In this document: one piece after another, positions 18,868 to 61,635 of the stretch
How positions within the stretch are numbered: the first letter of the stretch is position 1
Layout: the number at the start of each line of letters is the position of its first letter
Assembly (NCBI GenBank): GCA_018303855.1
Contig: JAGVXI010000006.1
Location: 41,181 to 105,180 of the forward strand
DNA from: Candidatus Pacearchaeota archaeon
Lineage (GTDB): Archaea > Nanobdellota > Nanobdellia > Pacearchaeales > GW2011-AR1
DNA length: 64,000 bases
Reading direction: 5' to 3'
Position numbers and translations under genes: made by a program
Notes under the pieces: generated by a model
Seen by the model: only the letters and a program-made list of their open reading frames with translations
Databases searched by the model: none
What the model was told of the DNA's origin: nothing

Positions 18868-19164
18868 ATGGAATTAATAAAGAAATTTATTACTGTCACT
18901 GGAGTTTTAATTGCTGCTGGGGTAAGTCTTCCTTTGATTGGCTGTGAAACAATACAGAAACACCCAGACCTTGCAGGAACAATTGGCGGAGCAGGAGCAG
19001 GATATGTAATTGGTGGAAAAAAAGGAGCTGTTATTGGAGGCGCTGCTGGTTATGTAATTGGAGACAAAGTGCAAGACGAACAAAGGGATAAGGAATTAAG
19101 AGAACTTAGAGAAAGACAAGAACGCTTGGAAAGAGAGCAGCTTCCCAGAGATTTTAGATATTAA
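18868..19164 (+). CDS. Glycine-zipper lipoprotein-like protein
   Basis: Lipobox-like LIGC, then GGAGAGYVIGGKKGAVIGGAAGYVIGDKV. Confidence 0.75.
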   Translation: MELIKKFITVTGVLIAAGVSLPLIGCETIQKHPDLAGTIGGAGAGYVIGGKKGAVIGGAAGYVIGDKVQDEQRDKELRELRERQERLEREQLPRDFRY

Positions 19165-20700: not shown

Positions 20701-20784
20701 ATAATATTTAAATATACCACTTGGTATGGTGTAGTATGACTAATCATACTAAGTCTTATAAATCATACCCCCATAATTTATATT

Positions 20785-20946
20785 ATGAAAAAGGGGGTTG
20801 TGAAAGAGAAGATAACCATCTCTATCAGCCCAGAGGTTCTAAAAAATTTAGACGACTATCGGGAAAAAATAAAACCAGTTCAGCCCGACAGGTCTCCTTT
20901 AATAGAAATAGCCATAAAAGAGTATTTGGCGAGGGAGAAAAAATGA
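20785..20946 (+). CDS. Ribbon-helix-helix (CopG-like) regulator (not in ORF track)
   Basis: Manual translation: MKKGVVKEKITISISPEVLKNLDDYREKIKPVQPDRSPLIEIAIKEYLAREKK*; stop overlaps the downstream start (ATGA). Confidence 0.75.
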   Translation: MKKGVVKEKITISISPEVLKNLDDYREKIKPVQPDRSPLIEIAIKEYLAREKK

Positions 20947-23900
20947 TGGAGATAAATAGAGAAAGCTTGTCAAATTTTCTTAGTTTGATTGAATTTAAAC
21001 TAAAAGACGGCGAAGAAGAAACCTATTCCAAAAAATATAGAAAACATAATGCCTATGAGATTGTAATAAAAGTAAATAGAAATTTTAAGTCTTCTTTAAT
21101 TGATTATGGAAATAAGATTAATGTCGGTAGAAGAACAATTACAAACTTCTCAAAACCAGAAAACTTTGTTATTTTAGAGTGTGTTGATAGATTATTAGAA
21201 AAGGGATATTCTCCAGAAAAAATCTTTCTGGAAAAAGATTGGAGGCAGGGTCATAATGAAGGAGGAAAGTTAGATATTCAAGTATTGGATAAAAACAATA
21301 AGAGTTTCTTGATGATTGAATGCAAGACATGGGATACTGAATATAAGAAATATGTACAAGAGACATATATGGATGGGTCACAAATATTCCCTTACTTTAA
21401 TAATGATAAAAATACAAAATTCCTCTGCCTTTACGCTTCTTACTTGGATGGGGAAAAAATTTTTTACAAAAGTTCTATAATAAAAGTAACTGAGGATATG
21501 AGAGACTCAGCAACAAGTCAAGAAGCATTTGAAAGATGGAAACCCCAAGTATTTGAAACAAACGGGTTATTTGAAGATGTTGCGGAACCATATCAACCAA
21601 AATTCACAGGGTTAAAAAAAGAAGACCTTGTATCTCTGACAAAAGATGATGGAGGAGATATTTTTAACAGATTCGCTGAGATACTTAGGAAAAATGTTGT
21701 TTCAGATAAAACAAATGCTTACAATAAAATATTCAATTTATTCCTATGTAAAATAGTAGATGAGTATAAAACAAATGAAAAAGACAAACTTAAGTTTCAA
21801 TGGGAAGAGGGTGAAACTAATGAAGAGGTATTATTGAGACTAAATGACTTATATAAGGAGGGAATGAACGAATATCTAAACTTGAAAATTTCTTCTGTAG
21901 ACATAGAAAAAATTGATAAACAATTGAAGAATTTGGCAACTGACAAAGAAAAAGAAATAATAAAACAAATGTTTATAGAGCAAAAACTTTATACAAGTAA
22001 TGATTTTGCATTTAAAGAAGTCTTTGATAAAAAGACTTTTGATTTCAATTGTGTAGTCGTAAAAGAAGTTGTTAAACTATTAGAAAGGTATAAAATAAAA
22101 TATGAAACCAAGCAACAATTTTTAGGAGATTTCTTTGAAAGTTTGTTGAACACAGGAATCAAACAAGAAACTGGTCAATTTTTTACACCAGTTCCAATAA
22201 CCCATTTTATATGTAGCTCCTTACCAATCTATGAAATAATAAAAGAGAAAAATGCCAATAGAGAAAATCATGTTTTACCATATGTTTTAGATTATGCTTC
22301 TGGTTCAGGGCATTTCCTCACAGAGATAATGGAAATCATTAATTATTACATGGACAAAATTGATGATAACTTCTTCAATAATGCATATGCAAGAAAAGAA
22401 TTTAATCGGAATAAAGATAATTTTCTTTGGGCTGAAGAGTATATCTATGGAATTGAAAAAGATTATAGGTTGGCAAAAACTACTAAAATTGCTACATTTC
22501 TTAATGGGGATGGAGAAGCTCAAATAGTTTTTGGTGATGGGTTAGATTCTTTTTCAGAATCTAAAGATTATATGGGACTTCTTAAATCAGAAAGGAAGGG
22601 TAAGGATAATCAGGTCTTTGATGTAATAGTGACTAATCCGCCTTACTCTGTAAATGGATTCAAAACGACTCTAAGAAATGGGAAAAGTAGCTTTGATTTA
22701 TTTGAATTTTTATCTGAGAAATCAGATGAGATAGAATGTTTATTTGTTGAGAGAGCAAAACAATTATTAAAAAATGGAGGCGTAGCAGGAATAGTTTTAC
22801 CAAGCAGTATACTTTCTAATAAAGGAATTAAAACAAAAACAAGAGAGTTTATCTTAAAAAATTTTGAAGTAGTGGGGATAATTGAATTAGGTTCCAAAAC
22901 ATTTATGAAAACAGGCACCAATACAATAATACTTTTCTTAAAAAAACTAAATAATTTAAAAGGTTTAGAAGTAAAGGAACATCTGGATAATGCATTTAAA
23001 TCTAAAAGGGATGTTACTATAAATGGAATTAAGAATCCTATAGATACTTATCTAAAAGAGGTTTATAATTCTAAATTTTCTGATTTCTTGTCTATTTTAA
23101 ACGGAAAACCTAATGAGAAAATAATCAAATTAGATATTTACAAAGAATACGCAAGTGAATTTTATAAAATAAAGGAAATAAAAGACTTACAAAGAAAGAG
23201 AGATTTTAATGAATTATCTGAAGAGGAACAGAAAAAAGTACTAACTGCAAGATTATGTTCTTATATATCTGAAAAGGAAAAAGAGAAACTTTATTTTTTC
23301 ATATTAGCTTATGCTCAAAGCCCCGTTTTAGTAAAAATTCCAAGAGAAATAAGGAAACAAAGAGAGTTCTTGGGATATAAATTCTCAGAAAGAAGAGGTA
23401 AGGAAGGGCTTAAATATTTAGATGAAGAAGAGAAAACTACAAGTTTATATGATGTAGAGGGAGTAGATAATCCTGAAAAGGTAAACTATTACATTAAGAA
23501 TAATTTTTTAGGGAAAAAAACAGAAATAGCAGAATCTTTACAGGGAGTAGTATTCTATCAGAAATTAAGTAGCTTAATTGATTTTAGACAAACCGAATTT
23601 AATAAAACAATAAATCTAAATCCAAAAGTAGAATTTGAAAGTAAATATGAAAAGGTTAAGTTAAAAAATAATTATGAAGTTGAAAAGGGTACATCAATAA
23701 CAGAAGAACAAACGAGAAAAGGTGGGATACCAGTAATTGCGGGTGGAAAACAACCAGCTTATTATCATAATTCCTCAAATAGAGAGGGCTATACTATTAC
23801 TATAAGTGGTTCTGGAGCTAACGCAGGGTATGTTTCCTTTTTTGATAAACCAATATTTGCTTCGGATTGTTCTACCATCAAATCAACTAACGAAAGAATA

Positions 23901-24734
23901 GCCTCAACCAAGTTTCTTTATTATTTATTAAGCCTCAATCAAGAGTCTATGTATTATCTAAAAAGAGGAAATGCCCAACCCCATGTTTATCCAAAGGATT
24001 TAGAAAATCTGAAAATACCTCTTCCTCAAATATCAATCCAAAATGAAGCAGTGCATAAATTAGATAAAATGGGTAGCGAACTGATTAAATTAAAAAAGGT
24101 TAACGAGAATCTTATTAAAGATAAAGAAATAAAATTAAAAGAAATAATCACAAATAAGTACCCTACTGAAAAATTAAGTAACTTATGTGAGGTTGTTAGA
24201 GGAGGGTCGCCAAGACCTAAAGGTAGCCCATTATATTTCTCAAAAAAAGATACGGGAATACACTGGATTTCTATATCTGATTTAACGAGATATAAAAAAG
24301 GTAAATTTATCACTAATACAATAGAATTTTTGACAGAAGAAGGTAAGTCAAAGAGCAGGTACTTGGAGAAAGGGTCTCTTGTCTTAACAAATAGTGGAAC
24401 GGTAGGAATTCCAGCATTCTTAGGGATTAATGGTTGTATCCATGATGGTTACCTAACTTTCCTTAATCTTTCTAAGAAAATATCTAATAATTATTTATAT
24501 TATGTTTTTAACGCTATGAAAGAGCATTTAGAAAGCATTGCACCTGAAGGAAACCAAAAGAATCTAAACACAACTATTGTTGGAAATTTGGAAATTGCTT
24601 TGCCCCCAGAAAAGAAACAAGAAGAAATGGTTAGCCTTCTTGATAAAATCAACAAGGAAATAGAAGAAAATAATTTAAAGATAAAGAAAATTCAAGAAGA
24701 ACAACAAAACGCCCTAAATGAGATTCTTAATTAG
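20943..24734 (+). CDS. Single-chain restriction-modification-specificity enzyme (Type IIG/Type I-like fusion)
   Basis: N-terminal nuclease-like LDIQVLDKNNKSFLMIECKTW; N6-MTase LDYASGSGHFL and VTNPPYSV; two HsdS-like target-recognition regions. The track start at 20721 is rejected in favour of ATG 20943/20946. Confidence 0.88.
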   Translation: MMEINRESLSNFLSLIEFKLKDGEEETYSKKYRKHNAYEIVIKVNRNFKSSLIDYGNKINVGRRTITNFSKPENFVILECVDRLLEKGYSPEKIFLEKDWRQGHNEGGKLDIQVLDKNNKSFLMIECKTWDTEYKKYVQETYMDGSQIFPYFNNDKNTKFLCLYASYLDGEKIFYKSSIIKVTEDMRDSATSQEAFERWKPQVFETNGLFEDVAEPYQPKFTGLKKEDLVSLTKDDGGDIFNRFAEILRKNVVSDKTNAYNKIFNLFLCKIVDEYKTNEKDKLKFQWEEGETNEEVLLRLNDLYKEGMNEYLNLKISSVDIEKIDKQLKNLATDKEKEIIKQMFIEQKLYTSNDFAFKEVFDKKTFDFNCVVVKEVVKLLERYKIKYETKQQFLGDFFESLLNTGIKQETGQFFTPVPITHFICSSLPIYEIIKEKNANRENHVLPYVLDYASGSGHFLTEIMEIINYYMDKIDDNFFNNAYARKEFNRNKDNFLWAEEYIYGIEKDYRLAKTTKIATFLNGDGEAQIVFGDGLDSFSESKDYMGLLKSERKGKDNQVFDVIVTNPPYSVNGFKTTLRNGKSSFDLFEFLSEKSDEIECLFVERAKQLLKNGGVAGIVLPSSILSNKGIKTKTREFILKNFEVVGIIELGSKTFMKTGTNTIILFLKKLNNLKGLEVKEHLDNAFKSKRDVTINGIKNPIDTYLKEVYNSKFSDFLSILNGKPNEKIIKLDIYKEYASEFYKIKEIKDLQRKRDFNELSEEEQKKVLTARLCSYISEKEKEKLYFFILAYAQSPVLVKIPREIRKQREFLGYKFSERRGKEGLKYLDEEEKTTSLYDVEGVDNPEKVNYYIKNNFLGKKTEIAESLQGVVFYQKLSSLIDFRQTEFNKTINLNPKVEFESKYEKVKLKNNYEVEKGTSITEEQTRKGGIPVIAGGKQPAYYHNSSNREGYTITISGSGANAGYVSFFDKPIFASDCSTIKSTNERIASTKFLYYLLSLNQESMYYLKRGNAQPHVYPKDLENLKIPLPQISIQNEAVHKLDKMGSELIKLKKVNENLIKDKEIKLKEIITNKYPTEKLSNLCEVVRGGSPRPKGSPLYFSKKDTGIHWISISDLTRYKKGKFITNTIEFLTEEGKSKSRYLEKGSLVLTNSGTVGIPAFLGINGCIHDGYLTFLNLSKKISNNYLYYVFNAMKEHLESIAPEGNQKNLNTTIVGNLEIALPPEKKQEEMVSLLDKINKEIEENNLKIKKIQEEQQNALNEILN

Positions 24735-24890
24735 ATATTTCTATACATTTAACCAAAAAAGATTTTCCTTAAAATTATAAGCAAATTTCTGGGGTGAAGA
24801 TTTTTTCCATTTATTACTACCAGCCTTTCTATATTTTATCTGAAAATAAAAATCCAATGAAGAAATCTCTTGAATCACGACTGTTTGCAA

Positions 24891-25136
24891 TTAAAGAATT
24901 CTAACTTTCTCTCTCCAATTAGGATTAATTCTGCATTTCATCATCTTATGCTTTCCCTCTTTTTTACAATTAGTTATTCCTGCTTTATCTAACTTCCCCA
25001 ATCTACTCTGAACAGTAGCTGGATGCACATTAATTGTTTTAGCTATTTTTGATGGGGTTACTGCAAGTTTTAATGGAACTATCGTTCTAATTATATCCCT
25101 ATCTATTGGGTCTAATCTTATTTTTTCTTTTGCCAT
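24891..25136 (-). CDS. Small HTH protein
   Basis: LAVTPSKIAKTINVHPATVQSRLGKLDKAGIT helix-turn-helix. Confidence 0.65.
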   Translation of the reverse strand: MAKEKIRLDPIDRDIIRTIVPLKLAVTPSKIAKTINVHPATVQSRLGKLDKAGITNCKKEGKHKMMKCRINPNWREKVRIL

Positions 25137-25336
25137 CTTATTGAATATTCTTTATTTTTAAGTGAAGCTTTAAATATAAATATATCTCCTTTTTTAATTC
25201 CAACAATCTCCGCAAATAAAGAAGGAATGGGAAGTACTAATTGCCTTCCAGTATGTTGAACTTTTACCTCTTTTAATATCTCTTGAGGCTCTTTGATAGT
25301 TGGATTTAATACGTCACCAATATTGCTTTTTTTCAT
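25118..25336 (-). CDS. AbrB/SpoVT-like small protein
   Basis: VKVQHTGRQLVLPIPSLFAEIVGIKKGDIFIFKAS; overlaps the HTH gene by 19 bp. Confidence 0.65.
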   Translation of the reverse strand: MKKSNIGDVLNPTIKEPQEILKEVKVQHTGRQLVLPIPSLFAEIVGIKKGDIFIFKASLKNKEYSIRWQKKK

Positions 25337-25454
25337 ATATTATGGTATTATTACCTCTATATAAATATATCTGTATATCATATTATAACTATTCAATTAC
25401 GAAACATTTATAAAGGTGTAATATAGTAATATGATAAGATTACAATAATATAAA

Positions 25455-26561
25455 ATGAAAAGATATAAAGGATATAGTGTATTAAAAGCACAAGCAGAGC
25501 ATAACCTAGAGAAAGAAGCTATCAGGAAAATAGAAGAAAAAATATACAAGAATATTCCTCTTCCTCCAAAACCTCAAAAGAAAATAGAGGATTTCATTCC
25601 TAAGGATACAGAATACTGGCACAAATACAATCAGGCAAAAACCAATGAGAAAAGAATGTTCTATTTGTTATTAGATGATTTATTGAATATGATACAAGAG
25701 CCTTATCATGATAATGGAAGACCTCCTGTTCCAATAAGAGATTTGTTATTCTGTTCCTGCATAAAAGCATATAACAACTTCTCAGCAAGAAGAATATCAA
25801 GTGATTTAAGGCATGCAGAAAATATGGGATTTGTAAAAAGAGTTCCACATTACAACACACTTCTTGCTTTTATGAATGATGATTTTCTTACAGACATGTT
25901 GGGTAAACTGATAACAATAACTGCTCTTCCATTAAAAAGCATGGAAACAGACTTTGCTTTGGACAGCAGTGGTTTCGGAAGTTATGAATATGAAAAATGG
26001 GTAAGGGTAAGATTTCAAAGAGCTTTGGGAAGCGAATATTCAAAAAGAAATTATGTCAAGGCACACATTGCTATAGGAACAACAACACAGATAATAACTG
26101 CTTGTGAAGTTACCCCTGGAAATGAATCAGATACAAAACAACTTCCATTATTAGTAAGTAAAACTCATAAAAACTTTGAACCAAAAAGATGGACAGCAGA
26201 TAAAGCTTATAGTTCTCGTAAAAATATGCAATTAATAGGAAGCCTTGAATCAATCCCTTTCATACCATTTAAGGATAATGCAACAGGAACTTCAAAAGGG
26301 TGCCCAATTTGGAATGCCATGTTCACTTATTTTCAGATGTACAAGGAAAAATTTGATAAATTTTACCACAGAAGAAGTTTAGTTGAATCAACTTTTAGTG
26401 TTTTGAAAAGAAAATACGGAGAATTCCTTCGCTGCAAGAATTTTGAAGCCCAAAGAAATGAAGTCCTGTTAAAATGCCTTTGCCACAACATTTCTCAGCT
26501 TGTAGAGGAAATTTATCAGAATGGCATAAACATCAAATTCAAGCCCCTTGCGACTTCTTAG
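25455..26561 (+). mobile_element. IS transposase, DDE type (IS4/IS5 superfamily-like)
   Basis: DDE landmarks: LDSSGFG, WTADKAYSS, RRSLVESTFSVLKRKYG. Terminal inverted repeats not identified. Confidence 0.85.
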
Positions 26562-28363: not shown

Positions 28364-31300
28364 TTATTTAAAGTATTGCTCTAAACCAATAGCTATTTCC
28401 TCAGCAAGAAGTTGTTTTGAAGCAGATTTTTTTAAAATTGCTGCATCTTGGGAATTTGAAATAAAACCAACTTCAACTAAAACAGCAGGCATTGTAGCTG
28501 TTTGCAAGACAGTCATATCAGCCCCTTTAACTCCCCTTGTTGTAGCTATGTTAATACTGCTAACAGCTTCTAACATTAGCCTGGCAAGATTAAAACTCAC
28601 ATCAAAACCAGCTCTTCCGTCTTCTCCAGCATTTTTTTTGCATTCATCATCTTTATCTGGATTAGACACATAATCGATTACCCCCTTTGTATCTCCTTGC
28701 TTACCAAAGCAAAAAAGATAAACTTCCGCACCATTTGCTTCAGAATCTTTAATAAAATTTTCATCTTTTGGATCGCCAAAAGAATTTGCATGAATACTGA
28801 TAAAAACATTTGCATTTTTTTGGTTAGCAATTGCAGTTCTTGCTGATTTGATTGGATCATCTGATAGAACCTTCTTAGTTAGGTAAACTATAGCCCCTTT
28901 ATTCTCTAATTCTCCTTTTAACCTCGATGCAATATCCCAAACAAGCTCTGCTTCATCAATACCATTGCCACTCGTACCAGTTCCTTTTCCACCATGCCCA
29001 GGATCAAGAACAATTATCTTGCCAGCAAGTGAAGATGTTGTTGTGCCAGTAGTTGATGAATCATCATCTTTGTTGCCCATTGAAGGATCACCACCGCCTC
29101 TTTTAGCAGGATAACACCCTTCATCTTGAATTGTTTGGTCAGAATAACAGCAATAGTCATTAACAAATTTTAAAAAGCCAAAAAAACCACCTCCAAATTT
29201 GCAAACCAATTCTGCTTCACAATCCCCATTATTATTACAATCGCCTTGATTATATGCTAATAATTTTTTATCAGAATCAACAGATTTTACTTCTTCAATT
29301 CTAATTTTTGCTGTGCCATCATTATTCAAGCCAATAAAAGTTATAGAGATGTCTTCAACATTATTATTGTCGACATCATTATCAACATCAAACTTTTGTG
29401 ATATCCCCTTTTGCAATTCAAAAATTCCATTTATTAAAGGATAAAGTTCAAGTGTTAGTTTGTCATTTTCAATTTTCACAGCTTTGATTGTAATAACAGA
29501 CATTGTTCCAGATGAAGGTTGTAAAATATCTAATAAGAATGGCTCATTTTCTTTAATATCTTTTATTAATACTTCTCCAGATTGTTGTTCAAGCACAAAT
29601 TCACTACTACCTTCTATTTGTGAAATGACATCAGCTATTTGCGAGCTTTGCCTTTCTCTTTCCAGCCATATAACGTTCCTAATCAAAGCATTATAAACTC
29701 TCGCCCTAAACCATGTAAGCTCTGCTTTTTGGAAAGAGTAAAATACCTTTGTGTAATTTAAGTCAATTGATTCTAAAGCGTGAAGTAAAGCATTTTGATT
29801 AACAACTTCTGCATCATTTAAATCCGGAGATGTACCAACTAATTTTATTAATGCCTCTCTTACCCCTGTATACTGCTCATTGTTCAGATATTTTCCTTCA
29901 TTCATTAATCTGTTAAGGTTATATTTATTCAAATCACCTAAAGTCTTGCCTTCAAGTATTTCCATTGAATTTTTCACAGAATTTTGGTCAAGCCAGCACC
30001 TTAATTTTTGATTATCACAATAACCAACATCAGTCCATCTTTGTTCATTTCCTACTCGTGTGCCAGGATTTGCAGTTGCACAAATTCTGATTATCCCGCT
30101 ATTATAAAGTTCAGGATTAATAAACTCCTCTGCACCTGCCTGAATATTTGGATTAATCATGCTATACAAACTCGGGCTTCCTGAAACACACTCTGCTTCT
30201 GTTTTAACATCTTTTTTAGTTGCCTGCTCTTTTTGATAAGACTCTGCTAAATAATCTAAAGCGAATGAGGTAGTAACCTGCTTAAATCCGCACTCTGTTT
30301 TGGCATTAACACTAACGCACAATTCTTTATATCCAGTTGATGCAATAAAATCAACTGTTTCAGAGCCAGTATCTCCTTTTGGAATATACCCATTTGCAAC
30401 AGAATAAGTTGGGTTTACCTGGTATAATGACAAACCTTCTGGATTCCTTAAATAAACTCTGAAATAAGCCCCCCTGTCATTTCCAGCATAAATATGGAAA
30501 AATACTTTATACTGGGAAGTTGCAGGCACAGTTGCAGTTGTAAATGGAATTTCTTCAAATCTTGCATAAAACTGCACAGGAGAGTCTGGCTCAAGTAATT
30601 TGTCTAAAAACTCCCCGCTTGCAGGATATCTTGCAGAGATAAATGTCTTGCAAACCTCTGTGCCAGCTTCTTCTGTAGAACGCGCTTTAAATGCATTAAT
30701 AGAATTTTTAGCATAATATTGCGTGAAATAAGAAACAGAGTTTTGTGCATTTTGCCAGGCATTCGCAACACCAAGATATTCTCCTCCTCCACGGACATTT
30801 TGCCCTGCAACAGCTTCAAATATTTTTGGGATTATTAATTTTGTAAATGGCACTGCTTGTCTCCAGAAAAATTCGCACATATAAATGCTCTGAATTTCAT
30901 CACAAATTCCAACTGTTTTTCCTGTTTCAAGATTTTCCTGTAAACAACCTTTGTAAGACTTCATAATGCTTACAAAATTATCAAGCCCTGCGTGAATTCC
31001 TGTCAAGCAAACAGGAACAGCAATCCCTTCCTTACGATTTGGCAGGCATAATGCAATACTCCCAACAATTCCTGACTGAACAACATCAGGCACAGTATAG
31101 CTTCCTCCTAAATTGCATCTGCTTGAAGGACAGATTACAGGGTCACAAACATTAAACAAAAGCTTGCAATCTTTTGGAGACATAAATTCCTGGCATTGCA
31201 TTTCAGGAACACCTGCTGCTGGATTTCCAACTCTAATTGGCTCTGCAACACCTGGAATCCTTATATAATCAATTCCAGCCCTATACTGGTTCTCAGCTGT

Positions 31301-34300
31301 TTCAAGAGCTCTTATAGCAGAACTGATTTTTCTTCTTGCTTCTGCTGGTTTTAAGCAAGAAACCTGATCATAAGACGCTCCTGTAACCATGTTTATTCCA
31401 TGACAGATATCATCTCTAATGCCGTCAAAAAAGTCTTGTCTTCCATTTGCCCCAACATTGCATAAATAAAAACTTCTTACTGCGCCAGACTCATCATATG
31501 AAGCAGTGCTTCCAAATCCCTGCACAGTCTGCTTTGTTGCAGCATACCATCCATTAACCAAATCAAATGGAACAATTGCAGCTTTTCCTTTATATGGCTC
31601 TGTTTCATAATACATTACTTCTGCATTGCTAAATCCATTTTTAGTGCAATCCTCTTCTTGGATTGAAGAGAATGTCATTTCTCCAATTTTGTTTATATCT
31701 TGCTCTATTATTCCTGCCTCATCCATATTCCTTAGTCCTATAATCCAATTTCCCGGAGGTGAATCAGGAGCGCTGTCCCTTCTTGCTAAAGGCGTTCCAC
31801 CTTCATCATAAATCTCACTAACAGTATAAACTATTCCTCCACTTGCTACTTGTTGCTTTAAACCCAAAACATAAAATTTATTATTGTAATCTACTGCCTG
31901 GATTTGTCTATCTTTTGGTATATTCCCAAATCCTTCAGCAATAGTTTGCCCATTACTATAATAATATCTATCTATTTTTTTATTATATTTAACCAGGCCT
32001 AAACTCTCGGTTTTCTGAGTATCTTCCAAACTGCCCAAAAAGTTTTCTTGCTGAACTTCTCTTTCATATGTATTTTTGATTTCAATTAAATTTTCATTTA
32101 ATCTCCTGCCAACTGCATCTTTCATCTCATTTGTAATTCCTTGCTGATTCAAAGTTTCCATGTCAGTATGAATGTCTCTTAAAGTGTTTAGAGGAACTTT
32201 ATCCAAATATTTATTAACATTATTGCTACTAAATTCGGTGTTTAAATTATTATTAGAACTAATATAATCCTGAACTTTTGGATTTAGTATATTGAGGTAT
32301 TGATTCCTCACCTGTTCTGTATTAACAATTCTTGTTCCAAGCTTTATCTCGGAATTATCTGGGTCTTTGTCTAATGGTTGCAACACTCCCTGAACATTTT
32401 GTATAGCTTTATATCTTAACTCAACATCTTTATCAACTTCACTGGAATAATGTGTCAGACACTGATCCATTGTTTGAAACTGCCTGCCTTGCCCAATCTC
32501 ACCACTGCATTTAGGATACCAGATATTTTTCATTATATCGTGCCTTGCAATTCCTTTGCCTCCAAAATTGGCAAAATAATTTTTCACAGTTAAATAAGCT
32601 CCAACACCCAAACAAGCTCCTTTAAACCCTTTTAACAAACTTCCAATATTATCGTTTATTTTTTCCCATTTTTCAATCTGCTTGTCTAAGCTCGCAATTT
32701 TTTCCTTGATTTTATCAGGGCTTAATTGAATTGCCCGCTTCTCAATTCCAATCTTAAATGTAAAATTTGCCTCTGTTCCTGCATTGTCAATGCTTGGCAT
32801 AACATGCACTTTTGCAAATTGATTTAAGTTAATCTTATTAACAGCAATCCTGTATTCTTGTTCTCCAATAATTTTATAATCTCCTTCTTTAACCTTTATA
32901 GTTTCAGAACCAAAAATATTATCGGTTAGTTTTCTCTTAACATATACATCAAAAGTTGCAGAATCTGCTTCCAAATCTTTTAATTCAATATACTCTCCTT
33001 TATCAGAAAGAAAAACTTTTTGATTCTGCGTCACTGGTTTTCTTCCATTGTAATTTGCATCTGCTGCTCCACTAATCTGCACTTCAACCCCGTAATCTTT
33101 AAATTTAGGTTCAGAAACTCCTTCAAATTCAATCATTCTTATTCTCCCTCCAACATAAACAGTCTGAGTTACAGGTTCTTGATTTGAAAGTTTTTCTAAA
33201 TTATTTAATACATCCTGAACAGAACCCCCAAGGTTGGAAGATTCTGGGTATAATTCAATAAACTCTTTTGCAAGCTCAACCATTTTAGATTTCTGATTAG
33301 CAAAATGAGCCATTAATATTGCTTCATATAATCCTCTTTCTGCATAAGTTTCTGGCAATTCGCGATTTTCAAAAATAACTTTTTCACCAGCAAATTGAGT
33401 TTTAAGTATTCTGTAATTTTCCAAAGCATTTTCAAAATAAATTTTAGCATTTGCATCCTGAATCTCTATGTCTCTCGGTTCTGCAAAACCTTTGAGTGTA
33501 ACAATCAAACCTGCAGATTGATCACCAACTAATCTTGCAGCAAGCCCTGGAAATAAATTATTAGTGGGGTCCTTAGCAGTAAGAGAATTAACAACTTCTC
33601 CTTCTACTATATATCCTGCAGAGGATTTTATAAACGCAGAGAACTTTGTTCTTGCCTCTCCAATTGTGCTTAACAAAGTATTTGGATTAGTTATTTCCCA
33701 CTGCCTTGCCAGCTTGTAAATCCTTTCCATATCAGATTCGCTTAATTTGTCAGAGTGTATCTGAGGCGCACTTAAAAAAATAACATTTAAATCATTTTCT
33801 TTGCCAGTATCCCCTTTTATATAAGCAGCTGCAATAAAAATATTAGTGTCTTTATTATCAGTATAAATTCTGTCCCCAACATTATAATCTTCTGCTGGTT
33901 TTCCATTAACTTCCAAGCTTATTTTTGCCCGTTTAGATAGCATAAACTTTTCACTTATGCTATCATCTTCCTTGCAGGAAACCTCAACTACCTGGTCTAA
34001 TCCACGATTAATTGCTTTTAAAAGTGTGCATCTATTATCCAAAAATTTGTCTCCTTTCATAACCTGCATACTATCTCCACCAATGCTGAATTTTGCCATT
34101 TCCTTTGGATCCACAAACCCATCTAATCTAACTTGCAATCCTGCTAAGCAATAAAATCCAGGCATGTAAATCTTGCTGGACGTCTGCCCTTTTCTTAAAG
34201 TAAATGTTCCAATCCTGTTTTCCTTGTCAGAATATACTGCAATAACTGCTCCATCTTCTCTAATTGATTCTGCTCTTACAAATCCCCTGCCGCTCCAAAA

Positions 34301-35023
34301 ACCATATTGTGCATAATTTTGCTCCCAATCCAAATCACTTAATTCTGACAGAGAAAAATCAGCTTTTCCAATTCCAAATGCATTTTGAATGTCATATCTT
34401 AAAAATGCAGTTAATTCTCCTTGAACATAATCTGGCATTGCAGACTCATTTGGCTGCTGTTTTAATATAATAACTGCATACCCGATATTATCGTCAACAG
34501 GAGTATTAATCAAATTAACTCCAGGAGAAAGTGCAGCCTGAGCAGGATGAAATCCAACTCCGCTTATTTCTCTTGGGTAATTTCCCTTAAAAGAAATGTG
34601 GTCAATTGAATTAACATCAATTAAAGGGTTTATCTTTGTTGCCATAATCGGGCAGAATACAGGAACATTTCTCTCTTCCAGCAAATCGCTCCTTACAACA
34701 GCAGGTGTGCAAGATGCAGGAGCAATTTGCAAAACAAAATCCTGCCCTGCTTCGCATTTTTCCTGGCTAAAAGTTGTAAAAGCATCTACACCACTTCTTG
34801 CAAAATAATCAAATGAAGTTGGCCTTGAGTATTGTGTGCTTGTTCTGCTGTAAGCAGCAGAAATTATACTCACCAAAAGAATCATTAAAACCAAGCCTAA
34901 GCTAATTAATAAAACTACTTTAAGACTAACACCGCTTTTAATTACGCCTAAATTATTATTCTTACCCACCTTATTTATTTTTACCATTCTCTTATTCAAC
35001 TTACCTTTTTTAACCCCCACCAT
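28364..35023 (-). CDS. Giant secreted/surface protein with C-terminal Amidase_3 (N-acetylmuramoyl-L-alanine amidase) domain
   Basis: 2219 aa; N-terminal TM VVLLISLGLVLMILLVSIISA; C-terminus IIVLDPGHGG...DEAELVWDIASRL...VFISIHANS...MPAVLVEVGFISNSQD. Confidence 0.9.
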   Translation of the reverse strand: MVGVKKGKLNKRMVKINKVGKNNNLGVIKSGVSLKVVLLISLGLVLMILLVSIISAAYSRTSTQYSRPTSFDYFARSGVDAFTTFSQEKCEAGQDFVLQIAPASCTPAVVRSDLLEERNVPVFCPIMATKINPLIDVNSIDHISFKGNYPREISGVGFHPAQAALSPGVNLINTPVDDNIGYAVIILKQQPNESAMPDYVQGELTAFLRYDIQNAFGIGKADFSLSELSDLDWEQNYAQYGFWSGRGFVRAESIREDGAVIAVYSDKENRIGTFTLRKGQTSSKIYMPGFYCLAGLQVRLDGFVDPKEMAKFSIGGDSMQVMKGDKFLDNRCTLLKAINRGLDQVVEVSCKEDDSISEKFMLSKRAKISLEVNGKPAEDYNVGDRIYTDNKDTNIFIAAAYIKGDTGKENDLNVIFLSAPQIHSDKLSESDMERIYKLARQWEITNPNTLLSTIGEARTKFSAFIKSSAGYIVEGEVVNSLTAKDPTNNLFPGLAARLVGDQSAGLIVTLKGFAEPRDIEIQDANAKIYFENALENYRILKTQFAGEKVIFENRELPETYAERGLYEAILMAHFANQKSKMVELAKEFIELYPESSNLGGSVQDVLNNLEKLSNQEPVTQTVYVGGRIRMIEFEGVSEPKFKDYGVEVQISGAADANYNGRKPVTQNQKVFLSDKGEYIELKDLEADSATFDVYVKRKLTDNIFGSETIKVKEGDYKIIGEQEYRIAVNKINLNQFAKVHVMPSIDNAGTEANFTFKIGIEKRAIQLSPDKIKEKIASLDKQIEKWEKINDNIGSLLKGFKGACLGVGAYLTVKNYFANFGGKGIARHDIMKNIWYPKCSGEIGQGRQFQTMDQCLTHYSSEVDKDVELRYKAIQNVQGVLQPLDKDPDNSEIKLGTRIVNTEQVRNQYLNILNPKVQDYISSNNNLNTEFSSNNVNKYLDKVPLNTLRDIHTDMETLNQQGITNEMKDAVGRRLNENLIEIKNTYEREVQQENFLGSLEDTQKTESLGLVKYNKKIDRYYYSNGQTIAEGFGNIPKDRQIQAVDYNNKFYVLGLKQQVASGGIVYTVSEIYDEGGTPLARRDSAPDSPPGNWIIGLRNMDEAGIIEQDINKIGEMTFSSIQEEDCTKNGFSNAEVMYYETEPYKGKAAIVPFDLVNGWYAATKQTVQGFGSTASYDESGAVRSFYLCNVGANGRQDFFDGIRDDICHGINMVTGASYDQVSCLKPAEARRKISSAIRALETAENQYRAGIDYIRIPGVAEPIRVGNPAAGVPEMQCQEFMSPKDCKLLFNVCDPVICPSSRCNLGGSYTVPDVVQSGIVGSIALCLPNRKEGIAVPVCLTGIHAGLDNFVSIMKSYKGCLQENLETGKTVGICDEIQSIYMCEFFWRQAVPFTKLIIPKIFEAVAGQNVRGGGEYLGVANAWQNAQNSVSYFTQYYAKNSINAFKARSTEEAGTEVCKTFISARYPASGEFLDKLLEPDSPVQFYARFEEIPFTTATVPATSQYKVFFHIYAGNDRGAYFRVYLRNPEGLSLYQVNPTYSVANGYIPKGDTGSETVDFIASTGYKELCVSVNAKTECGFKQVTTSFALDYLAESYQKEQATKKDVKTEAECVSGSPSLYSMINPNIQAGAEEFINPELYNSGIIRICATANPGTRVGNEQRWTDVGYCDNQKLRCWLDQNSVKNSMEILEGKTLGDLNKYNLNRLMNEGKYLNNEQYTGVREALIKLVGTSPDLNDAEVVNQNALLHALESIDLNYTKVFYSFQKAELTWFRARVYNALIRNVIWLERERQSSQIADVISQIEGSSEFVLEQQSGEVLIKDIKENEPFLLDILQPSSGTMSVITIKAVKIENDKLTLELYPLINGIFELQKGISQKFDVDNDVDNNNVEDISITFIGLNNDGTAKIRIEEVKSVDSDKKLLAYNQGDCNNNGDCEAELVCKFGGGFFGFLKFVNDYCCYSDQTIQDEGCYPAKRGGGDPSMGNKDDDSSTTGTTTSSLAGKIIVLDPGHGGKGTGTSGNGIDEAELVWDIASRLKGELENKGAIVYLTKKVLSDDPIKSARTAIANQKNANVFISIHANSFGDPKDENFIKDSEANGAEVYLFCFGKQGDTKGVIDYVSNPDKDDECKKNAGEDGRAGFDVSFNLARLMLEAVSSINIATTRGVKGADMTVLQTATMPAVLVEVGFISNSQDAAILKKSASKQLLAEEIAIGLEQYFK

Positions 35024-35050
35024 TTTTTCATTTTAAGTTTGTATCCATTT

Positions 35051-36937
35051 TCATCTTACATTCACAATTAAACTATTTTGTTCAAACAATAACTGATTAC
35101 TCTGCAATTGTTCTAATGTTGATGGAATTGGCAGGCTTGTAGCATCAATTTCAACTAACCTTCCCCCTGCTAATTCTGATTCAACAAAATAATACGGCTG
35201 TGAGCCTCCACCAGACAAAGCATTTGTAACTGTTTGCTCAGGAATATTAATGTCAAAACATTTTTCAGTTGTCATACCAAGTATTCCCCCTAAACCAGGA
35301 TTTGGAACATCAATGCATTGCGATTTAGAAGTTGCTTCTAATTTTAATTGAGAATCCCTGTAAATCTGAACAATTATTTCATAATCTCCTTCGCTTAGCT
35401 TCACGCTTTTTTGCTCAGGATAAACAACTGATGTTGAATATTTTTCAGAAACAAAATTAACAATTGCTTGCCCAGTATAAGTTCTTCCATCTAATCTTAA
35501 ATTTAAATCCAATTCATAAACTTTTTCAAGGAATAATTCTGTTGCACCTGATTCAGTAGTTGAAAACAAAGTTTTTCCCTGCCTATAACCTTCTGCATCT
35601 GCTAAAATATAACCATTGACGCACTGCGGGAAGTTTTCAGACAACTGTCCATTTTCTGTTTCGCCAATTGAACATTTTGTTCCAAAACACTCAAAAGAAA
35701 TTTTAGCATCTACTGGATTTATTCCCAAATCATAGGTATTAACGCTTACTTGAGTATTTTTATGCTGGCAAAGTTCTGGCAAACCAACTATTGCTCCGCT
35801 TCCCTCTAAAGCCTCTCTTTGTTTATTACCCTGAATAACAACTGCAACTGGAAACTGGAAAATTTCGCTCACAGCCTCGTCATAAACCTGAATCAAGACA
35901 GGGTAGTTTACATTATAAACAAAATGATAAGGAACATAACAAAAGCCAAGTATGCCTAATCCGGGCTGGTCTCCAACAGGACTTGCAATCAAGATACTTT
36001 CTTCACTTGGATCAACTTCAAAACTATGGGGCCAATTTTTAGAAGTTAAGAATCTGACATTTGCCTTAGGAGAAATATCAACCATAAAATAATCATCAGC
36101 TTTTTCTTGCACATCTCCTCCTTTAACTTTTAAGGCAAGAGTGTTTGCTTCAATTGCATTTTCCAGTTCATCAAAAACTTTTTCTGCATCCCATATTTTA
36201 GGCGCACATGTAATTTCAACTCCATCAACAGGGGCATATAATCTTAAGACATCAACTCCGTAAGTTTCCAAAAACAAAGTATCCTGCTCATGATTGTATA
36301 CTTCAAGTGCAGCTTTGTACAATTCTCCTAATTTTGAATTAACATTTATTTCATGAGAACTTACTTTTGCTGTTTCCTCTGCTTTGCTAATTTCCATCAA
36401 CATATCTAAATTGACCATGATACTTTTGTCACTAATGCTCACTTTAGCTTCTGGCTCTTGCATAATAATATCATATCCCTGTTCATAATAATCATCAAAA
36501 ACACATGCACTTACTTTAGATTCAATAAAATCAGCAAGTTGCTGTTCCATCTCGGTTTTACTTGGAACTTGTTCTTTCTGAAAATTATTTCCAGAAACAT
36601 AATACCAATAAGGCACAGGATTTCCTAAAACATTAAGCTGTGAAGAAAACGGCATATATTCGCTTCCTGTATCAAAATTAGGCAGATAGATATATCCTGC
36701 TTGAGATTCTAAAACATCTATTCCAGTTAATGTATCTTGTTCAAGACAAGATAAAAATGTGTTATAAACCGGCTCTAAAGATGCAGGAAGTCTTTTTTGA
36801 AAAATCACATCTTTAAGCAAAAAAACTCCTACAACAAGTGAAACTATAATAATTGCGATTATTATAAATAAAGTTATCTGCCCCCTCTTTCCTCTTTGAT
36901 AATTATTGCTTTTCATCTTTTTTTCCAAAAACCCCAA
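35051..36937 (-). CDS. Secreted/pilin-like N-terminal-TM protein; likely start at internal Met 36913-36915
   Basis: KRGQITLFIIIAIIIVSLVVGVFLLKDVIF N-terminus; 27 bp upstream of the amidase gene on the same strand. Confidence 0.8.
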   Translation of the reverse strand: MGFLEKKMKSNNYQRGKRGQITLFIIIAIIIVSLVVGVFLLKDVIFQKRLPASLEPVYNTFLSCLEQDTLTGIDVLESQAGYIYLPNFDTGSEYMPFSSQLNVLGNPVPYWYYVSGNNFQKEQVPSKTEMEQQLADFIESKVSACVFDDYYEQGYDIIMQEPEAKVSISDKSIMVNLDMLMEISKAEETAKVSSHEINVNSKLGELYKAALEVYNHEQDTLFLETYGVDVLRLYAPVDGVEITCAPKIWDAEKVFDELENAIEANTLALKVKGGDVQEKADDYFMVDISPKANVRFLTSKNWPHSFEVDPSEESILIASPVGDQPGLGILGFCYVPYHFVYNVNYPVLIQVYDEAVSEIFQFPVAVVIQGNKQREALEGSGAIVGLPELCQHKNTQVSVNTYDLGINPVDAKISFECFGTKCSIGETENGQLSENFPQCVNGYILADAEGYRQGKTLFSTTESGATELFLEKVYELDLNLRLDGRTYTGQAIVNFVSEKYSTSVVYPEQKSVKLSEGDYEIIVQIYRDSQLKLEATSKSQCIDVPNPGLGGILGMTTEKCFDINIPEQTVTNALSGGGSQPYYFVESELAGGRLVEIDATSLPIPSTLEQLQSNQLLFEQNSLIVNVR

Positions 36938-37046
36938 TTTTTTTCTTTATTAGTTCTATAATTTCTGTATTAATATCTTTTTTAAGATTGCCTTTAAATT
37001 TCTCCCAAAGCTTCTCATCTTCTATAAGAAGCAAATATTTTTTCAT
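36903..37046 (-). CDS. Small leader ORF overlapping the 628-aa gene (not in ORF track)
   Basis: Manual translation: MKKYLLLIEDEKLWEKFKGNLKKDINTEIIELIKKKIGVFGKKDEKQ*; well placed TATA box at about 37097-37110. Confidence 0.55.
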   Translation of the reverse strand: MKKYLLLIEDEKLWEKFKGNLKKDINTEIIELIKKKIGVFGKKDEKQ

Positions 37047-37268: not shown

Positions 37269-37493
37269 TTACTTACTACTGGCTCTTAAATAATTAATTC
37301 CACCAATAATTATCAAAACCCCGGCAATAGCAAAAATCCATTCATTCAATGCAGTTATAGCATCTGGGATTTTAACAAATGTGAATTTTAGGTTAATTAA
37401 GTATAATCCAAAGACCAAGTAAATTAACAAAAAAATTAATGAACCTGTTTTACTTTTAGCATAAATCTCAGAACCATAATCTCTTCTTGACAT
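37269..37493 (-). CDS. Small two-TM membrane protein
   Basis: 74 aa with two hydrophobic segments. Confidence 0.6.
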   Translation of the reverse strand: MSRRDYGSEIYAKSKTGSLIFLLIYLVFGLYLINLKFTFVKIPDAITALNEWIFAIAGVLIIIGGINYLRASSK

Positions 37494-39421: not shown

Positions 39422-41032
39422 TTATTTTATTTCCCATTTAATACACCATAAAAACCCCAAGAGCCTTTTTATACATAGTTTTTCCTGAGAAACAATAGTA
39501 TCTCCTGTTATTGGAAACTGTGATTGTTGTTGGAATTCGGAATTAATTTTTTCCTCATAATATTGATTAATTATCAATGCGTCTAATATTTGGTTATATG
39601 CATTATTACAATTAGAAGGAATTATTAAATTAGCATGACTAGTACATTGAGTGTCTTCATAATTTTTAGCCCCGCTCAATTGAACTCCAGAACCAACAAT
39701 ATGGTCTGAACTAGTGTAAATAGTGTAATATTCAACATCTCCATAAGTTTCATCATTAGAGTTTAGGTCATTCAAAAATTGGCTATTAAAGTTAAGGTCC
39801 TTTAATGATTTGTCTTGATTATAATTACATCCATTTTTAATAAGGGCTTCAATTAAACCCCCAAGATTCCCATTTGCACCATGATTCGGTGTTCCCAACA
39901 TAATTAATTTGTGTACCTTTTTATCTCCCCCAAGATAATTAATATAATATCTTGCGGTTAATCCCCCCATACTATGTGCAATTATATTAACTTTGTAATA
40001 ACGGGAGTTGGACAATGCTTTATCAATTTCTTTTTGCAATTGAAGTGCATGCTCTCTAATTCCATATTCTGCTAAATTACTACAAGTTATATCTGAATAA
40101 TCTATATTATATGTTTCTGCTTTTGCTGTTCCACTAGTTTGAACAATCTGAGTATCCCACTTTATGCTTTTTTCGAGCTCATCAAATGAACTTCCACTAC
40201 CAGTCCAGCCATGAACAAAAATTATTGGGTAATCATTTATATTCACTACTTGATGAGTAGAAAGGTTTAATTCATTTATTCTTTTTCTTTGCTCATCTAA
40301 ATTTTGTTGATAACTTTCTTCAAGAGTAGTGCATTTCTCTCCACTATCTCTTATCTCACTTTTTCCACATCCATCTTTACATAGCAAGGTATAACTTTGA
40401 TTAACACATTTGAAATATGAACATTCCCAATTAGACACACAACAAGCTTCTCTTTCTGTTTTAGTATTGCCACAGCCATCATTACAGTTTCTTGTTCTTT
40501 GTCCATTTACGCAATTTGACCAATCTCCACAATTCCATGAAGGAGTACATTTATTTTCTTCCTGAAACTTAACCCAAGCACTTAAGCATATCCCCATTTC
40601 ATCCCGAGTGCATAAACTATCTTGCCATTCTTTTTCAATGATATGCACTTCATCTTCTGTATTACAATCAATCTTTGAAGGATAAGAACATATATTTCCT
40701 ACTGAAGCTTCACCTAAAAAATTAGCAACGAGTGCACCCCCTACAAGATAATTATTATATTGTGCGGTATCTATAATTATTCCCTGGTTATCGGTAATCT
40801 TTATAGAAATATCCAATCTATCTGTAACTGAAGAAATTTCTGTACGAGCAATCCCCCTAACGTCTGCTAAAAGGTTAACATATTTTACTTTTTCTTGATT
40901 ATAAGAATTATCAGCTTGAATAAATACAAACCTATCGGGTTCAGTTTGGACTATAATATTTGTTTGGTAGGCTGAAACAAACCCACTTAAAAAGATAAGC
41001 AAAAATACCAAAAGTATTTGACGATTTTTCAT
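39422..41032 (-). CDS. Secreted lipase-like alpha/beta hydrolase with Cys-rich module
   Basis: Signal peptide, two Cys-rich repeats (SWNCGDWSNCVNGQRTRNCNDGCG / NWECSYFKCVNQSYTLLCKDGCG), VHGWTGSGSSF, IIAHSMGGLTARYY. Confidence 0.85.
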   Translation of the reverse strand: MKNRQILLVFLLIFLSGFVSAYQTNIIVQTEPDRFVFIQADNSYNQEKVKYVNLLADVRGIARTEISSVTDRLDISIKITDNQGIIIDTAQYNNYLVGGALVANFLGEASVGNICSYPSKIDCNTEDEVHIIEKEWQDSLCTRDEMGICLSAWVKFQEENKCTPSWNCGDWSNCVNGQRTRNCNDGCGNTKTEREACCVSNWECSYFKCVNQSYTLLCKDGCGKSEIRDSGEKCTTLEESYQQNLDEQRKRINELNLSTHQVVNINDYPIIFVHGWTGSGSSFDELEKSIKWDTQIVQTSGTAKAETYNIDYSDITCSNLAEYGIREHALQLQKEIDKALSNSRYYKVNIIAHSMGGLTARYYINYLGGDKKVHKLIMLGTPNHGANGNLGGLIEALIKNGCNYNQDKSLKDLNFNSQFLNDLNSNDETYGDVEYYTIYTSSDHIVGSGVQLSGAKNYEDTQCTSHANLIIPSNCNNAYNQILDALIINQYYEEKINSEFQQQSQFPITGDTIVSQEKLCIKRLLGFLWCIKWEIK

Positions 41033-45233: not shown

Positions 45234-48200
45234 ATGTTAGAGAAATTTGGAGAAGTCTTAAGAAAAGCTACAGATAAGATAGCTAATGCCATATTCCTTG
45301 ATAAAAACCTCGTAGATTCGATAATCAAAGATCTACAAAGAGCCTTAATAGAAGCAGACGTAAACATTAAACTTGTAAAAGAATTAAGCGATAAACTGAA
45401 AAAGGCGGCATTTGATGAAAGAATTAAAGGCATAGAAAAAAAAGAGCATCTTATCAAAGTTTTACATGATGAACTAATTGCTTTGCTTGGAGAATATAAA
45501 CAGCTTAAATTACAAAAAGGACAAAACAGAATTCTGCTTTTAGGTTTGTATGGGGCAGGAAAATGCGTCCACGCAGAAAGCAATATTCAATTAGGCAATG
45601 GGGATATTATTAAAATTGAAGATCTTTATAATAGATATAAAGATAAAAATGAAGAAGAATTAGAAGAAGGAAAAATAATAGATATATCTAGTAAAAATCT
45701 GTTTGTTCCTTCATTTAATTCCAATACCGCTAAAATAGAAAATAAAAAAGTAACGCATTTATGGAAATTAGCAAAAGATAACCTGATTAAAATTAAAGTA
45801 AATAATGGGAACGATTTTTCAGTTAAAGTAACTCCAGAACATCCATTTTTTGTCCTTAGAAATGAGAAAATTGTTAAAATAAGAGCAGATGAAATAACAT
45901 TAAATGATTATATATCTATTCCTAGAGAAATAAAAAATGATGGCAAAATTATTGGATTATTTGACGAAATTAAAAAATTAAATCTTTATACCTATTTAAG
46001 TCAAGAAGAAATAAAATTAATTTTGAAAGAAAAAAATAAAAATTTAAAGGAAATCTGTAAAGATTTGAAATTCAAGAAAAACTATTGTCATTTTACTTCA
46101 AGAATCAAGAGAGGTCAAGTCCCAATAGAACTAATAGAAGAAGGCAGATTTAATCTCTTAAGAATAAAAGAATATAATAGTTACAAAATTATTACAATGC
46201 CCTGTTACTTAACGCCAGAATTTGCAGAATTTATTGGTTATGTTATGGGAGATGGAAATATAGGGAAAAATTATATCCAAATATCTAATGAAGATACAGA
46301 GATAATAAAACGAATAAATGAACTCTCAAAAATTCTTTTTAACATAACTCCCTCAATTAAAAGAGACTTTAGAACAAAAAAAATGTATAAAGTTATAATA
46401 AGTTCAAAATCTTTAATAGAAGTTTTTAAAATATTTGGACTAAAAAGAGGTAGAAAGGGAAAAGAATTAAAAATTCCACAACAAATCTTACAATCTAATA
46501 AAGATACAATAAGGTTATTTATTAGGGCTTACTTTGATTGTGATTCAAGTCCTTCAAAAGGAAAAAGATTTATAGAGCTAATCTCTGAAAGCAATATCCT
46601 AATAAAACAAATGGACTTGTTGTTAAGAAGATTTGGCATTTTGTCAGCAATTTCAAAGAAAATTATTAAAAATATTTCATATTGGAGACTTTCTATAAAA
46701 GCGCGATATGCAGAAACTTATGCTGGTGAAATAGGATATTTAATAAACAGAAAAACAAAAATAATAGCAGGATACAAAAGGATAGGAATAGTTCAAGGAA
46801 CAGGAAATCAAGATATGATTCCTCTAGGTAAATCTCTAAAAGAACTAAGAACAAAACTTGGATTTTCTATAGGTGAAATACAAAAAAATGCTGTTTGTAG
46901 TTATGGAATACATGAAAAAAAAGGTTTTATATCAAGAGAGAACCTGCTAAGACTTATAGTTTATTACCAAATTAAAAAAAGAGGGATATTTCTAAGTTTG
47001 TTGCAAGACATAGAAAATAGAAGTTCATTAAAGGATAAATACTCTAAAGAACTAATAAATGGGACACTTTATTACTTAAAAGATCAAGGAATTATTAATC
47101 TCGAAGATAATAAAAATTTAATCCTTTCACAAAAGGGTCAGTTATATCTGCAACAGATAAATGAAAACCAGTCAGATTATCTATTAGAAATGTTAGAGAT
47201 GCTTGCTAATTCAAATGTATGCTGGATGCCTGTAAAAGAAATAAAAAATATCTCAAATGATAAGGAATTTGTATATGACCTAACAGTAGAAGATAACCAT
47301 AGTTTTATTGCAGAAGGGTTTATAGTTCATAATACAACAACAGTTGCAAAACTCGCTAATTATTTTGCTAAAAGAGGAAACAAATCTGCTGTTATTGGCT
47401 TAGATGTACACAGGCCTGCAGCACAAGAGCAATTAAAACAGCTTGCTGAAAGAAACAAACTGAATTATCTAATTGATATTAATGCAAAAAACCCAATAAA
47501 CACCTATAAAAATTTCAAACCAGAATTATCAAATTATGATGTACTAATAATTGACACAGCTGGACGCCATAGTTTGGACAAAGAGCTTGTAGCAGAAATT
47601 TCTGCATTAAATAGGTTAATTGAGCCAACTGAAACAATCCTAATCATGCCAGCAGATATTGGACAAGCGGCAAAACAACAGGCACAAGCTTTTAAAGAAA
47701 TGCTGCAAATTTCTGGAATTATTGTCACAAGAATGGATTCCACTGCAAAAGGAGGGGGAGCATTAACAGCATGTGCTGAAATAAAAGCACCTGTTTATTT
47801 TATTACAACAGGAGAAAAAATAAATGACATTGAAGAATTTAATCCAGAATCATTTTTATCAAGACTTTTAGGCATGGGGGATCTTCAGATTTTAATTGAA
47901 AAAGTCCATTCTGCCTCAGACACAAAAAAACAAGAAGAAATTTCAAAAAGACTGCAAGAAGGACAGTTTTCTTTAGAAGATGTCATTGAGCAAGTAAAAA
48001 CTCTTGGCTCTGTCGGCGGATTTGATAAAATAAAGAGTATGATTCCAGGATTAGGCAAAGTAAAACTTCCAGAACTAAAAGTTGAAAACCAAGAGCAGAG
48101 AATAAAAAAGTGGGAGCATATAATTAAATCAATGACGCAGGAAGAAAAAAACAATCCAGAATTATTAGAAAGACAAACAACTAGAATTGCAAGAATAGCA

Positions 48201-61218: not shown

Positions 61219-61635
61219 TTAAATTTCTTTTTCCCCTTTATGCCAACCAATTAATGGAGAAAATTTTTTCCAAAATGGGTTTTTATTTCCCCTAAAAGTC
61301 AGATAATTTAACTGAAAACAACTGCCTTCTGCATAACCAACGCTTCCAACCTGCAAAGTGGTTTTTTTCTCTTTTTCTTCAGCTTCTGTTGCTGTATGTG
61401 TGTTAAATATTGGGATTACCTTTGCATACCAATGATTGTCACCAGCTAAGTTTAATATTCCAATTTCAGTATAACTTCCGCCTTTTGCTAAACAACCATA
61501 ACCAATTAAAAAATCTCTTTCTCCTTCCCTGTCAATCATCACAGAAGACATTCTAATGTTATATCCAGCACAGCCAGTTGTCGCTAAAATAGTTCCAGCA
61601 ACTGCACTAGCTAAGATTTTCCTTAAACCTTTCAT
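61219..61635 (-). CDS. Putative lipoprotein
   Basis: Signal peptide with lipobox-like LATTGC. Confidence 0.65.
   Translation of the reverse strand: MKGLRKILASAVAGTILATTGCAGYNIRMSSVMIDREGERDFLIGYGCLAKGGSYTEIGILNLAGDNHWYAKVIPIFNTHTATEAEEKEKKTTLQVGSVGYAEGSCFQLNYLTFRGNKNPFWKKFSPLIGWHKGEKEI

Follow-up and report, generated by a model that had tools for sequence, protein, structure and literature searches.

A 2219-aa exported protein of a Candidatus Pacearchaeota archaeon, encoded within a 64,000-nt stretch of contig JAGVXI010000006.1 (the window), ends in an apparently intact peptidoglycan amidase. Comparison with its homologues showed that, at the level of sequence, the long N-terminal trunk of this protein family is inherited at a fixed chromosomal site while the C-terminus has been replaced repeatedly. 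Judged by these alignments, the conserved part of the protein is the trunk and not the amidase, which is one among many exchangeable predicted payloads rather than a defining feature.

The operon and its amidase

An earlier note had described a tight minus-strand operon of a 47-aa leader, a 628-aa protein and a 2219-aa protein, and all three ORFs are open as claimed. The leader gene (positions 36,903 to 37,046) overlaps the gene for the 628-aa protein (35,051 to 36,937), which is separated by 27 nt from that for the 2219-aa protein (28,364 to 35,023; an open ORF with homologues), so that an operon is supported. Translation of the 628-aa protein probably begins with the ATG at 36,916 (MKSNNYQRGKRG/QITLF...) rather than at the TTG at 36,937. 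A gene for a 74-aa small membrane protein lies upstream of the operon on the same strand (37,269 to 37,493).

The trunk comprises aa 1 to approximately 1790 of the 2219-aa protein. Near its start is a hydrophobic segment (about aa 33-58, ...LVSIISA/AYS; 34,850 to 34,927) that may be a Sec-type signal or an anchor and is the only one in the protein; 105 of 107 trunk relatives have such an N-terminal segment and 102 of the 107 have no other, consistent with export of the trunk. A Cys-rich conserved core (aa 1130-1695; 29,939 to 31,636), seen in alignments A1 and A3, is followed beyond the trunk by a variable linker (29,015 to 29,626), parts of which are rich in Cys or in Ser/Thr/Gly/Asp, and then by the Amidase_3 domain (aa 2004-2215; 28,379 to 29,014). 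Similarity between the window protein and its nearest trunk relative ends at aa 1777.

The amidase domain matched Pfam PF01520 with 137 bits (cut-off 27, E 8e-40), covering model positions 1-173 of 174, and phmmer aligned it with the solved AmiA, AmiC and CwlV (E 6e-19 to 2e-16; 72 bits for AmiA 8c2o). The putative zinc ligands His2010 (DPGHGG), Glu2024 (DEAE) and His2078 (SIHAN) and the putative catalytic Glu2184 (VEVGF), numbered by counting along the printed protein sequence, fall at the corresponding positions of 8c2o and 4bin. The full-length match and the retention of all four residues agree with the earlier view that every landmark of an intact-looking Amidase_3 domain is present. Catalytic residues, read from the sequences, are likewise retained in all four Amidase_3 tips of the family. 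The catalytic domain and active site are shared with AmiA, AmiC and CwlV but, unlike those enzymes, the window amidase forms the terminus of a 2219-aa archaeal trunk protein. The genome (860 kb, 91% complete) yielded no other Amidase_3 domain. Nothing points to a very recent insertion of foreign DNA, as amidase part and trunk are close in GC content (36.5% and 35%) and both have low GC3. Contamination or misassembly was considered and is unlikely, given the continuous frame, the fitting GC content and the Amidase_3 tips of three other relatives.

Exchangeable ends on a conserved trunk

Homologue searches agreed with the earlier note that both large proteins belong to conserved, uncharacterised DPANN families. 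With the first 1990 residues as query, 136 of the 371 genomes searched in the phylum contained trunk relatives, among them 62 of the 64 in the window's family, all seven others of its order and many in the class. A trunk-core profile retrieved 245 relatives from named genomes; among the best 80, almost every one belongs to Candidatus Pacearchaeota or Nanoarchaeota. The relatives are about 1650-3250 aa long and carry an export signal. The archaea that produce them are very small, look parasitic and build no cell wall of the bacterial type.

In almost every locus where sufficient sequence is available, a gene for the 628-aa partner precedes the trunk gene; the two are no more than 60 nt apart in 98 of 107 pairs, and 57 pairs have an overlap of 4 or 1 nt. 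A transcription factor B (TFB) gene is found downstream of the trunk in 66 loci, an eS1 gene upstream in 61 and an eL42 gene upstream in 55. The same operon with the same housekeeping neighbours indicates that the trunk locus is ancient and has kept its position. Within the trunk core, 36 (A1) and 51 (A3) alignment columns are invariant, many of them Cys. The core profile had no meaningful match among PDB sequences, and its structure model (pLDDT 72), a predicted Ig-like sandwich, showed local Ig-like likeness but no global fold match to PDB structures.

Payloads were counted over 112 non-redundant complete ends from 121 trunk proteins in all, taken from draft genomes, mostly MAGs, in which certain ends could be misassembled or wrongly binned. 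A recognised or inferred murein hydrolase was present in 48 of the 112 ends, or in 38 without the ten proteins that are assigned solely by a new Cys/His domain, and in 46 of the 94 ends that extend at least 200 aa beyond the trunk. Post-trunk Pfam matches included SLT (GH23), Peptidase_M23, Amidase_3, Glucosaminidase (GH73) combined with NLPC_P60, DUF2272, 3D combined with a GDSL lipase, and others; class assignments below the Pfam cut-off are based on motifs and locally built profiles. The earlier note had taken systematic lack of the amidase in homologues as grounds for abandoning its proposal. Read literally, the homologues do lack it, as Amidase_3 occurs in 4 of 121 trunk proteins (the window protein, L097, L101 and L160), on separate branches; yet murein hydrolases of unrelated folds often substitute for it, and their presence in the amidase's place strengthens the reading that bacterial walls are the target.

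SLT-like tips, identified by local profiles, occur in 27 proteins, about a quarter of the trunk relatives; the payload alignment matched MltC and Slt70 (best E 3e-17), and all 27 copies that span the catalytic Glu retain it. These payloads are also similar to EtgA and to a phage tape measure protein. The new domain, characterised by invariant Cys and His residues, was found in 12 proteins by local profiles and had no match in PDB or Pfam; its Cys/His pattern suggests an NlpC/P60-like enzyme. A tryptophan-rich module (YFKY...WxWS) is present in 60 copies in 34 proteins, often paired ahead of the enzyme; its profile found no match among PDB sequences, and by its sequence it looks like a binding module. 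In the other 64 of the 112 ends no hydrolase could be recognised; some have almost nothing past the trunk, and others carry ankyrin repeats, a transglutaminase-like domain, trypsin (in one case) or no recognisable payload. The hydrolase-free ends, among them the trypsin end, indicate that wall cutting is not universal in the family. A Tox-REase-5 payload in one relative was weak (E 0.0036), disappeared when members were rescanned one by one, and was rejected.

Replacement of the ends is seen most directly in pairs of closely related trunks. L071 (DUF2272) and L073 (SLT) have trunks that are 61% identical and nothing detectable in common afterwards, and the trunks of L138 and L143 (70% identical) and of L078 and L136 (78% identical) are followed by unrelated ends of 550-820 aa. 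Sister trunks of 54 to 78% identity can bear unrelated ends. L118/L119 and L101/L114 differ by clean gain or loss of an end of about 430 aa. Mapped on a tree of 121 trunk-core sequences, payload labels required 34 changes, compared with a mean of 44.6 and a minimum of 39 for shuffled labels, and among the 48 hydrolase-bearing trunks 20 changes compared with a shuffled mean of 22.7 and minimum of 19, in a test that is coarse owing to small classes and a quick tree. The kind of payload is tied to trunk descent only loosely.

A constant, long N-terminal part with a highly variable C-terminal effector is also how the polymorphic toxins CdiA and Rhs work, to which the trunk family may be likened by analogy. 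Exchangeable C-terminal modules are found in both, though homology is not established, and the putative tips here are wall hydrolases whereas those of CdiA and Rhs are intracellular toxins. Nor do trunk loci have the adjacent immunity gene of the CdiA/Rhs type: downstream of the trunk there is no consistent small (immunity) gene but conserved housekeeping genes instead, which fits a producer without murein.

The pilin-like partner and the small genes

The pilin-like nature that the earlier note gave to the 628-aa protein is borne out by a class III signal, KRG/QITLFIIIAIIIV, that is, [KR][GA] ahead of a hydrophobic helix, which a strict pattern recognised in 84 of 102 partner homologues. Tandem beta-sandwich domains are predicted to follow it; the structure model (pLDDT 82) is a chain of predicted Ig-like domains with weak likeness in the PDB to Ig-like domains of pilus and adhesin proteins, and the partner profile had no meaningful match among PDB sequences. 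Compared with the PDB, neither the trunk nor the partner fold has a clear known counterpart. The genome also encodes a family A24 prepilin peptidase and three T2SSE ATPase matches of the type IV pilus type. Gene order suggests that partner and trunk work together.

The 47-aa leader (MKKYLLLIEDEKLW...) is a conserved microprotein and possible autoregulator; it shares 50-80% identity with its aligned homologues and is therefore considered a real conserved gene. It resembles a ribbon-helix-helix pattern by eye, but the similarity was not significant by hhalign and its profile had no meaningful match among PDB sequences; that it is a ribbon-helix-helix regulator is a guess. In L098, L108 and L115, RHH or winged-helix genes occupy the leader's place. 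Small membrane proteins like the 74-aa one of the window form a cluster of 38 loci, where their genes lie a median of 69 nt upstream of the partner gene.

Target and possible function

No match to a Mur ligase (Mur_ligase_M) was found in the window genome, its family or its order, in line with the earlier expectation of a producer without murein synthesis; matches elsewhere in the class are mostly single proteins of about 400 aa that are probably FolC-like. The substrate should therefore be the murein of another organism. Pseudomurein contains neither N-acetylmuramic acid nor D-amino acids, and so cannot account for SLT/GH23, GH73, M23 and Amidase_3 jointly; murein is indicated, and bacterial murein is the substrate common to the recruited hydrolase families. 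With no Mur ligase and such varied putative murein hydrolases, the bacterial wall, which the earlier note had suggested as the target, appears the likeliest substrate.

Large SLT-bearing extracellular proteins of Pace- and Woesearchaeota, up to 3,000 aa, were reported as fam00969 by Castelle et al. 2021 (PMC8204110), where bacterial hosts were proposed. The fam00969 proteins match the trunk family in lineages, large size, extracellular location (trunk relatives have an export signal), an SLT domain and the suggested bacterial target, and the two are most likely the same protein family, although the SLT domain ascribed to fam00969 is missing from the window protein, which has Amidase_3 instead. 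The text of the paper names lytic transglycosylase only, leaving M23 and Amidase_3 unmentioned, and its passages on fam00969 contain no account of payload exchange, a two-gene operon, a fixed locus, the tryptophan-rich or Cys/His modules or an amidase version. The bacterial-target idea was also discussed by Vigneron et al. (PMC9723730) and in PMC11537232. Strock et al. 2025 (PMC12352652) described archaeal modular peptidoglycan hydrolases that kill bacteria, with Nanoarchaeota among the carriers. Those enzymes and the trunk family are alike in being archaeal, directed against murein and subject to domain shuffling, but the cases detailed there are haloarchaeal zoocin A-like enzymes that have neither trunk nor partner, and because only proteins pairing a catalytic domain with a known wall-binding domain entered the survey, it would overlook trunk-borne tips that lack the latter. 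In the open-licence literature, no description was found of payloads exchanged on a single trunk, of the operon partner or of the amidase version. The SLT-bearing large proteins and the proposal of bacterial hosts are thus already known, as far as the fam00969 passages go; new are the amidase version, the swapping of payloads at one unchanging site, the conserved partners and the tryptophan-rich module.

We consider it reasonably likely that the product of the locus is a tool fixed to the cell, bearing an exchangeable tip for cutting bacterial peptidoglycan; that the enzymes are active, that the tool is displayed on the surface and that bacteria are its target is what we infer from the evidence above. 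The pilin-like partner would anchor the trunk to the envelope or extend it outward, and the disulfide-rich trunk would reach a neighbouring bacterium, where binding modules and a lytic tip would bind murein and open it locally; the window tip would cut the MurNAc-L-Ala amide bond. Such local opening could help an archaeon that is unable to feed itself to attach, take up nutrients or act as a predator. A producer that has no murein would require no immunity protein, and exchange of the tip would track changes in the bacterial partner or its wall chemistry.

All of the sequence evidence for such a tool is shared by the proposal that the hydrolases scavenge, freeing sugars and amino acids from dead bacterial walls while the trunk merely holds the enzyme near the cell. 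Pacearchaeota depend on amino acids and sugars, and peptidoglycan of dead bacteria has been proposed as their food (PMC11537232); however, a trunk of about 1800 aa with a pilin-like partner is expensive for feeding, and repeated tip replacement and hydrolase-free tips are left without a reason, so we regard scavenging as unlikely. Less probable again is that the tips remodel a polymer belonging to the producer itself or to a host archaeon (pseudomurein or S-layer glycan) or aid pilus assembly. Bacterial lytic transglycosylases do assist secretion and pilus assembly, the EtgA and tape measure likeness of the SLT payloads is in keeping with such a role, and the DPANN hosts known so far are archaea; but family and order are without Mur ligase, the four hydrolase classes are incompatible with pseudomurein chemistry, and it would be a strange coincidence for several murein-specific families to have been recruited independently. 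That the modules serve adhesion to bacterial walls only, with catalysis dead or irrelevant, would suit the binding-like tryptophan-rich module and the many enzyme-free ends but is very improbable given the catalytic residues retained in the SLT and Amidase_3 tips.

A wider reading is more tentative and falls slightly short of an even chance: a fixed surface operon, trading its wall-cutting tip among several unrelated murein hydrolase families, would serve archaea throughout the lineage as a feeding tool or a weapon on contact against bacteria, and whole Pacearchaeota groups would be parasites or predators of bacteria and not archaea. Counting against a bacterial target, the hosts of cultured DPANN archaea are, to our knowledge, all archaea; for most DPANN archaea we know of no identified host. 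If the tips do cut murein, each genome's tip would be a clue to its bacterial partner and perhaps to the wall type of that partner. The tryptophan-rich module and the Cys/His domain are two unexplored domain families, to which a new disulfide-rich trunk is added, and, if the proposal is true, archaea would gain a polymorphic, exchangeable antibacterial surface tool.

Trunk loci of relatives and the region beyond the TFB gene

At two loci of trunk relatives in other genomes, L160 and L196, a second pilin-like gene carrying the signal KRGQVTIFII was found downstream of the trunk gene. At a third (L136:2121-4430), the trunk ends in a trypsin-like protease in place of a wall hydrolase, and the trunk end at L078, a close sister of L136, is unrelated to this trypsin-like end. 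In the window, two genes within 20721-26561 are located immediately past the transcription factor B (TFB) gene: one is Type I/IIG-like and of the restriction-modification kind (1337 aa), the other encodes a DDE transposase of 368 aa. Apart from these two genes, the adjoining region is syntenic.

Mur ligase candidates in the class

In one genome of the class (G330, contigs C2 and C7), Mur_ligase_M gave three strong matches, 500-590 aa in length, which possibly represent either genuine Mur ligases or contamination from bacteria.

Surface proteins, SRP54 and a lipase-like gene in the window

The 1881-aa surface protein encoded at 763-6408 (+) has a membrane segment followed by a C-terminal sigma-70 region 4-like helix-turn-helix, a layout as if an outer sensor were fused to a DNA-binding tail. 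Lipobox-like signals (LIGC, TTGC) occur in two small proteins, encoded at 18868-19164 (+) and 61219-61635 (-), that look like bacterial lipoproteins in an archaeal genome; one of the two proteins gave a weak Gly-zipper match. The SRP54 gene (45234-48371, +, 1045 aa) is split by an intein comprising a splicing domain and a LAGLIDADG endonuclease, inserted adjoining the P-loop (GAGK|C...HN|TTT). Approximately 2 kb upstream of the trunk operon and on the same strand, a gene at 39422-41032 (-) encodes a secreted class 2 lipase-like protein of 536 aa with Cys/Trp-rich repeats, which could target membrane lipids as a complement to the wall hydrolase of the operon.
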